64,000 bases of DNA from Nereocystis luetkeana. Its lineage: Eukaryota > Sar > Phaeophyceae > Laminariales > Laminariaceae. The stretch lies in contig JARUPZ010000016.1 of assembly GCA_031213475.1 (NCBI GenBank), positions 2,475,140 through 2,539,139 on the forward strand, given 5' to 3'. Positions within the stretch are counted from its first letter, which is position 1; the number at the start of each line of letters is the position of its first letter. This document shows, piece by piece, positions 5,474 through 53,882 of this stretch. Position numbers and translations under genes: made by a program. The notes beneath the pieces are model-generated. The model was not told the origin of the DNA and did no database searches. It saw nothing but the letters and a program-made list of their open reading frames with translations.

Positions 5474-5970
5474 ATGCTTCAGCGCAGCAGAAACACCGCC
5501 AACAACAACACCGGTTCGAGCCGCAACAGCAACAGCAGTAATGATTTATTAGGAACAGCGGCGGCAGCAGCACCTGGAGCAGCAGCAGCACGTCCTGGCC
5601 CGACTACAAACGCTGGTAGACGAAGGAGACTCGTCGTCCGGCCGCGAAGTGAGCGCCACGAGAGAACCTGCTTGGTCGTACTGTTCGCTGCCGGCTTGCT
5701 CTGCGTAGTGCACGTCCTGTCCTCTGCCAGCACCACCTTTTTGGGATGGGGCCGCACGAACGGGGAGCCGGGTGTGCCTTCGCTTTCGCTCGACTTTCAG
5801 GGTACGTCGAGAACGTCAGACGAGAAGCCCCGCATCGCGATAGTCTCCAACGCTGTAGCTTTCCCGTACAGCGACGTGACGACGGCGCAGTGGAGCCTGT
5901 TCAAGGAGTACTTCGCCAACAAGGACTGCTACGCGAAGTCTCATGGGTACGACCTCATCATCGACTCGAG
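5474..5970 (+). CDS. Exon 1: anchor and start of GT34 domain
   Basis: Encodes residues 1-165 plus two bases. The N-terminus is Asn/Ser-rich then Ala/Pro-rich, with an Arg cluster GRRRRLVVRPRSERHER just before the hydrophobic CLVVLFAAGLLCVVHVL, as expected for a type II Golgi protein. It ends in the GT34-like strand PRIAIVSNAV and the segment YAKSHGYDLIIDS. The donor is TCGAG|GTAGGT. The ATG at 5474 is the first in this frame before the anchor. Confidence 0.88.

Positions 5971-53882: not shown

Follow-up and report, generated by a model that had tools for sequence, protein, structure and literature searches.

Gene Structure and Exon Composition

The analyzed region (hereafter the window) is a stretch of 64,000 nt from the 465-Mb genome assembly of the brown alga Nereocystis luetkeana (positions 2475140-2539139 of contig C16). 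Within the window, we found a gene predicted to join a GT34-like glycosyltransferase (GT) half to a second half with a sulfotransferase fold. Exons were placed by hand using motifs and phases and were then tested by tblastn with homologous proteins. The final model has 16 exons that encode 813 aa, with the start at 5474, the stop codon at 53880-53882, and all exons on the + strand. In the spliced model, AG/GT borders are in phase at all 15 introns. The exons are listed below; the PAPS loop refers to the binding site of 3′-phosphoadenosine 5′-phosphosulfate (PAPS).

Exon 1: 5474-5970, + strand; start codon, N-terminal anchor (aa 65-83, at 5666-5722), and beginning of the GT34-like domain; 100% match to P0037, which is taken as the window's own
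Exon 2: 11206-11404, + strand; GT34-like, DMD motif at 11336-11344 (tblastn, spliced model)
Exon 3: 15835-15936, + strand; GT34-like, LLRNSP (tblastn, spliced model)
Exon 4: 20403-20497, + strand; GT34-like, DDQSRLYAAIL (tblastn, spliced model)
Exon 5: 24795-24887, + strand; GT34-like (tblastn, spliced model)
Exon 6: 26905-27031, + strand; GT34-like (tblastn, spliced model)
Exon 7: 27836-27984, + strand; end of the GT34-like domain, VHTKPFC at 27890-27910 (tblastn, spliced model)
Exon 8: 30052-30168, + strand; bridge of the two halves (CYGRGWVAKPY...), 117 nt, phase 2-2; not in the first-pass model
Exon 9: 34136-34313, + strand; linker and degenerate PAPS loop LPGAGGKEF at 34278-34304 (tblastn, spliced model)
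Exon 10: 35738-35806, + strand; sulfotransferase-like half (tblastn, spliced model)
Exon 11: 38279-38425, + strand; QVFPY at 38333-38347 (Val in the catalytic His column) and RDPVDR (tblastn, alignment)
Exon 12: 45239-45454, + strand; completes the 3′-phosphate motif, RDPVDR followed across the junction by VLV, with Val in the Ser column (tblastn, alignment)
Exon 13: 47481-47627, + strand; sulfotransferase-like half, FHHWQAN (tblastn, spliced model)
Exon 14: 51463-51573, + strand; FFGVWELWQQSSELL, aligned with the late FxGLTE stretch of Sulfotransfer_2 proteins
Exon 15: 52621-52697, + strand; 77 nt, low conservation, set by phase and spliced-model alignment, without a separate tblastn match
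Exon 16: 53765-53882, + strand; C-terminal stretch NKKDVMLYVRAVMEFKRRC and stop codon (tblastn, alignment)

The first-pass annotation had described one start, one stop, and in-phase introns on a single strand, all of which stand, but its 15 exons and 774 residues are superseded. Omission of exon 8 from the 813-aa model gives exactly 774 aa, so the earlier model is the same gene with one exon skipped; because this exon has 117 nt and phase 2-2, the frame holds without it. Likewise, the link that was drawn between the halves at 27984/34136 is retained, but the junction itself is replaced by 27984/30052 and 30168/34136, with exon 8 in between. The single membrane anchor that was proposed for the N-terminus corresponds to the only N-terminal hydrophobic segment (aa 65-83), and the motifs DMD, LLRNSP, SLPGAGG, and RDPVDR are all present in the sequence. 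Two exon starts that were initially placed at 38318 and 45281 were replaced by 38279 and 45239 based on tblastn with homologues. When the Scytosiphon homologue was used as the tblastn query, separate matches were obtained for 15 of the 16 exons, the exception being exon 15. Exon 8 was recovered with five of the six homologues (P0001-P0005); for P0006, its CYG-GW start is aligned in the multiple alignment only.

Homologues and Conserved Domain Order

A preliminary model was first compared with ~5.8 billion proteins, of which the 7995 with the largest number of shared words were scored. Scoring was limited to ~8000 such candidates in each of the three protein searches, such that more distant relatives may exist. 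Six proteins were found at E <= 0.001. Three predicted proteins from related genomes have both halves in the same order, as the earlier annotation had proposed looking for. The one from Scytosiphon promiscuus has 795 aa and is 69% identical over 100% of the query region, the partial one from Ectocarpus has 769 aa (67% over 89%), and that from the xanthophyte Tribonema minus has 1032 aa (39% over 98%). Judged by the aligned sequences, the match strength of the homologues is far above chance. The other proteins are incomplete: P0003 (500 aa) covers exon 9 but loses similarity ahead of the PAPS loop, P0004 (Ectocarpus, 552 aa) ends just past RDPVDR, and P0006 (669 aa, partial, from Phaeothamnion) loses similarity shortly past the loop. 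With a full-length profile, 7997 candidates were scored and 53 proteins reached E <= 0.01. These include the first six and proteins from Discosporangium and Ectocarpus fasciculatus; the others are mostly fragments about the size of an exon, including one from Laminaria digitata. The full first exon is present in L. digitata (67%). Some fragments form pairs with one member per half, namely, P0010 and P0029 (contig of 979741) and P0032 and P0051 (contig of 18465), and each pair appears to lie on a shared contig.

These results bear on the possibility that two neighboring genes, one for a GT34 and one for a relative of sulfotransferases, were falsely joined by prediction. The introns that flank exon 8 are ~2.1 and 4.0 kb long, and the public models are themselves predictions. 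Also, in the Ectocarpus assembly that contains P0004, the gene's end was annotated as a model of its own (P0007, 170 aa) on another small contig. However, this split falls inside the second half rather than between the halves, and the bridging exon 8 is in phase on both sides and has tblastn matches with most homologues. Moreover, the proteins predicted in Scytosiphon, Ectocarpus, and Tribonema contain both halves, and when only the second half was used as the query, five proteins were found among 7996 candidates scored, none of which is a stand-alone complete second half. We consider a false join highly improbable. The gene is very probably real and predicted to encode one protein, as the first-pass annotation had proposed for a single polypeptide, with exon 8 and the predicted homologues that contain both halves in support.

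The GT34-Like Half

The assignment of the first half to GT34 was upheld by Pfam. The query, a GT-half sequence that lacked parts of the final model, scored 41.1 bits against PF05637 (cut-off 23), and this profile is above its curated cut-off in all six homologues. The DxD metal-binding motif is DMD at aa 210-212, and the six homologues have DMD or DLD. PF03314 (DUF273) scored 18.6 to 27.6 bits in five of the six homologues, under its cut-off of 30, and 31 in Tribonema. In a profile search of the PDB, the GT half matched a PBCV-1 glycosyltransferase (E 0.017) and, weakly, XXT5 (9p3j; E 5.9); XXT1 (6bsu) was a weak match in the structure comparison. Taken together, the first half appears GT34-like with an intact DMD, and a GT-A glycosyltransferase domain is predicted at ~aa 118-421. 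A PF05637 profile search gave no match in the N. luetkeana genome but also none in 14 control genomes, and is thus uninformative.

The Sulfotransferase Fold and Its Active Site

Based on profile and structure comparisons, the region behind the linker (~aa 489-813) is a predicted sulfotransferase fold of the Sulfotransfer_2/HS6ST kind, in agreement with the fold proposed for it earlier. The central beta-sheet fold of the PAPS site was found, and the profile alignment runs from the PAPS loop through the C-terminal stretch. Among solved structures, heparan sulfate 6-O-sulfotransferase (HS6ST; PDB 5t03/5t05) ranks first and HS2ST second, and NDST1 (8ccy) is also among the matches. The likeness to HS2ST/UST in the first-pass annotation therefore stands in part: HS2ST ranks second, but HS6ST ranks best, and UST is not among the matches listed, although kinship to it may still hold. 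Of the two Pfam families that had been named for the halves, PF05637 was confirmed above its cut-off, but PF03567 (Sulfotransfer_2) was not, as the second half is under the curated threshold and contig C16 is absent from the list of 18 PF03567 matches in the N. luetkeana genome. No sulfotransferase was matched in Pfam, NCBIfam, or PDB when single sequences were used as queries. For structure prediction, an AlphaFold2 model of P0001 with seven family rows was rejected (mean predicted local distance difference test score, pLDDT, of 32.3), and a second model was made with nine family rows and 23 Sulfotransfer_2 proteins (mean pLDDT 51.6).

According to a published definition, sulfotransferases have a PAPS-loop Lys/Arg, a Ser in the 3′-phosphate helix (the PXXRXXS of PF03567), the beta-sheet, and a catalytic base that is either His or Glu (PMC11625862). 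In this family, the loop reads LPGAGGK or similar, and Lys/Arg is at the defining position in none of 11 sequences (the window, P0001, P0002, P0004, P0005, P0006, P0049, P0050, P0051, P0053, and P0054; P0002 and P0004 are close relatives). P0003 diverges before the loop and was thus left out. The defining column is Gly/Gly/Gly/Ala in the four aligned rows. SLPGAGG, which had been read as the PAPS loop, thus lacks the defining Lys/Arg, and that it works as one is not supported. The 3′-phosphate Ser is absent in all four rows, with Val in the window, Ala in P0001 and P0002, and Met in P0005; P0004 stops and P0009 enters intron sequence past the RDP motif, so neither was counted. This Ser is present in 81 of the 84 readable sequences among 96 reference proteins, and in all 18 PF03567 exon matches of the N. 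luetkeana genome (12 distinct, since seven are identical over the printed stretch). The catalytic His column, which was aligned identically by hhalign and MAFFT, has Val in three rows (the window, P0001, P0002) and His in the fourth, from Tribonema, and a Glu base elsewhere is possible; the same QVFPY is found in P0004 and P0009. The Arg of RDP is retained in all four rows. Judged by these alignments, the second half is a sulfotransferase by descent and fold, not by defining residues.

An enzyme with two activities, whose GT34 half would add a sugar to be sulfated by the second half through a non-canonical PAPS site (e.g., the GGK lysine), would be consistent with the extent of the profile alignment, with the retained RDP Arg, with Lys/Arg at GGK/GGR in three brown-algal rows, and with the His in Tribonema. 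However, the loop Lys/Arg and the Ser are missing from every sequence counted, the His is absent in the brown algae seen, and the GGK lysine is replaced by Glu in Tribonema and by Ala in Phaeothamnion. We regard this explanation as unlikely, and the earlier proposal that one protein both adds and sulfates a sugar is not borne out by the residues that remain.

That the second half is a decaying passenger without a role appears less likely still. Active-site residues are lost, and conservation is below that of the GT half (75% vs. 86% identity to Scytosiphon and 39% vs. 62% to Tribonema). Nevertheless, the frame is open across exons 9-16, RDPVDR, FPY, and QAN are invariant in four alignment rows (Tribonema included), and the C-terminal NKKDVMLY stretch is aligned in the three rows that extend that far.

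A Probable GT34 Protein Carrying a Pseudo-Sulfotransferase

Over an enzyme with two activities, we favor a GT34 that carries a pseudo-sulfotransferase. It is probable that one gene encodes one 813-aa protein with a working GT half and a sulfotransferase fold that no longer transfers sulfate and has a binding role. The exon model, the domain order kept among homologues, the kinship in fold, and the residue losses were obtained by computation. The product would be a type-II membrane protein, for which we infer a probable Golgi location, and the GT half with its metal-binding DMD is probably the working enzyme. Because the PAPS-loop Lys/Arg and the 3′-phosphate Ser are lost, as is the catalytic His in brown algae, sulfate transfer from PAPS is most likely gone, while much of the remainder is conserved. 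Retention of the frame, the fold motifs, and much of the sequence together with loss of the class-defining residues would fit a pattern typical of pseudoenzymes. Binding would be the least demanding role, in the form of acceptor-glycan holding, sensing of 3′-phosphoadenosine 5′-phosphate (PAP), or docking of a real sulfotransferase beside GT34. By binding an acceptor glycan (perhaps sulfated) or a partner sulfotransferase, the fold may position the GT34 active site. More tentatively, it is possible that brown algae and their xanthophyte relatives kept a dead sulfotransferase fold throughout the lineage as a glycan- or PAP-binding module with a covalent link to GT34, which would make sugar addition dependent on acceptor sulfation. 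If the second half is a pseudoenzyme, the protein would offer a direct way to test the coupling of sulfation and chain building.

Several points weigh against this interpretation. In the GT half, the PF05637 match spans only ~profile positions 17-100 of 238 and the C-terminal part of the domain has no match to the Pfam model, such that glycosyl transfer is predicted only. The structure model of the second half is weak (mean pLDDT as above, loop region mostly <70), and the Foldseek match has an E of 1.1e-3 with poor values for both the template modeling scores (0.17/0.20) and the root-mean-square deviation (10.7). As the alignment used for this model includes Sulfotransfer_2 proteins, the fold matches are supportive rather than independent. 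Also, single-sequence hmmsearch matches begin past the PAPS loop, and its placement thus comes from hhalign and MAFFT. Brown-algal members have a Lys/Arg four residues past the lost one (GGK/GGR; AGK in P0050 and P0051), and this residue could take over phosphate binding. The loss was observed in few independent sequences, mostly of brown algae, with four in the Ser count. Furthermore, the reference set was fetched through a Lys-containing loop and is thus biased for Lys, not Ser, whereas the exons from the N. luetkeana genome were found by PF03567, mostly via the Ser-bearing stretch, which biases this control towards Ser.

Repeats and Other Features

Eleven copies of a ~110-120-nt element, 60-85% identical to the reference copy, lie in the introns of the gene. 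Inverted ends of 27-31 nt are present in the three that were inspected, e.g., GGTCCTATTAACTATGGTCCCCCGTAA at 37221-37247, and the element looks like a non-autonomous DNA transposon of the miniature inverted-repeat type (MITE). An interspersed repeat of ~260-300 nt (family D4, which overlaps D6 and D8) has 64-96% identity to its reference copy. The copies are located as follows:

~110-120-nt element: 6022-6142, 7377-7497, 19780-19900, 21734-21854, 28175-28295, 35410-35530, 37130-37250, 39166-39286, 39279-39399, 41735-41855, and 48994-49114
~260-300-nt repeat: 23156-23418, 24034-24296, 29318-29580, 29692-29954, 50306-50568, and 53411-53673

Two long tandem arrays adjoin splice sites, with a 19-nt array (15303-15828) that ends 6 nt upstream of exon 3 and a GGTTG array (24891-25601) that begins 4 nt past the end of exon 5. 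Intron 8 contains a 106-nt array (31681-32456; 7.3 copies, 95% matches). A run of 100 N at 55998-56097 is probably an assembly gap.

Elsewhere in the genome, five of the 18 Sulfotransfer_2 exon matches are on contig C6 (8.08-8.97 Mb). One exon is present seven times, identical over the printed stretch, with six copies on contigs other than C6, which may represent recent duplication or unplaced duplicates. The loci concerned are as follows:

Sulfotransfer_2 exon loci L237-L247: contigs C6, C1250, C1669, C1673, C313, C1023, and C1245

Comparison with Known Systems

With HS6ST (PDB 5t03/5t05) and PF03567, the algal domain shares the fold and the order of elements, namely, the PAPS loop, the strand before RDP, RDPVxR, and a late FxGLTE-like stretch. 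It differs in that the loop Lys and the 3′-phosphate Ser are missing, as is the catalytic His in brown algae, in its location behind a glycosyltransferase, and in its score below the Pfam threshold. With GT34 proteins (PF05637; XXT5 and XXT1), the algal protein shares a PF05637 match above the cut-off, DMD, and the LLRNSP region, but this match is partial, and ~390 extra residues with a sulfotransferase fold follow the GT half.

The synthesis of brown-algal sulfated cell-wall sugars is, to our knowledge, largely unassigned. In a brown-alga survey, sulfotransferases were collected by Pfam signature and then by BLASTp with those sequences (PMC11468063). Since the second half is below the Pfam threshold, a survey of this kind would probably miss the domain. 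The same survey cites an analysis in which no fucose was detected in Tribonema (PMC11468063), and, given that both halves are present there, the role of the protein may be older than fucans.

Fusions that involve sulfotransferases have precedents. In Nemacystus decipiens, the fusions FK-GFPP and ST-alpha/beta hydrolase have been described (PMC6418280), which are also brown-algal and in one case involve a sulfotransferase gene, but the partners differ; the term GT34 is absent from the main text of that report. A fusion of GT34 and Sulfotransfer_2 is not named in the literature searched, which is weak evidence of absence given that most subscription papers and supplements were outside its reach. 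Among animal glycan enzymes, NDST and DSEL have a sulfotransferase domain fused to another glycan-modifying activity. The algal protein is alike in having a sulfotransferase fold and another glycan-modifying domain in one chain, but the partner domain of NDST and DSEL is a deacetylase or epimerase rather than a glycosyltransferase, and in NDST the sulfotransferase domain is active. GT34 and Sulfotransfer_2 are each known, as are sulfotransferase-fold fusions in animals; within the literature searched, the combination of GT34 with a sulfotransferase fold appears to be new.
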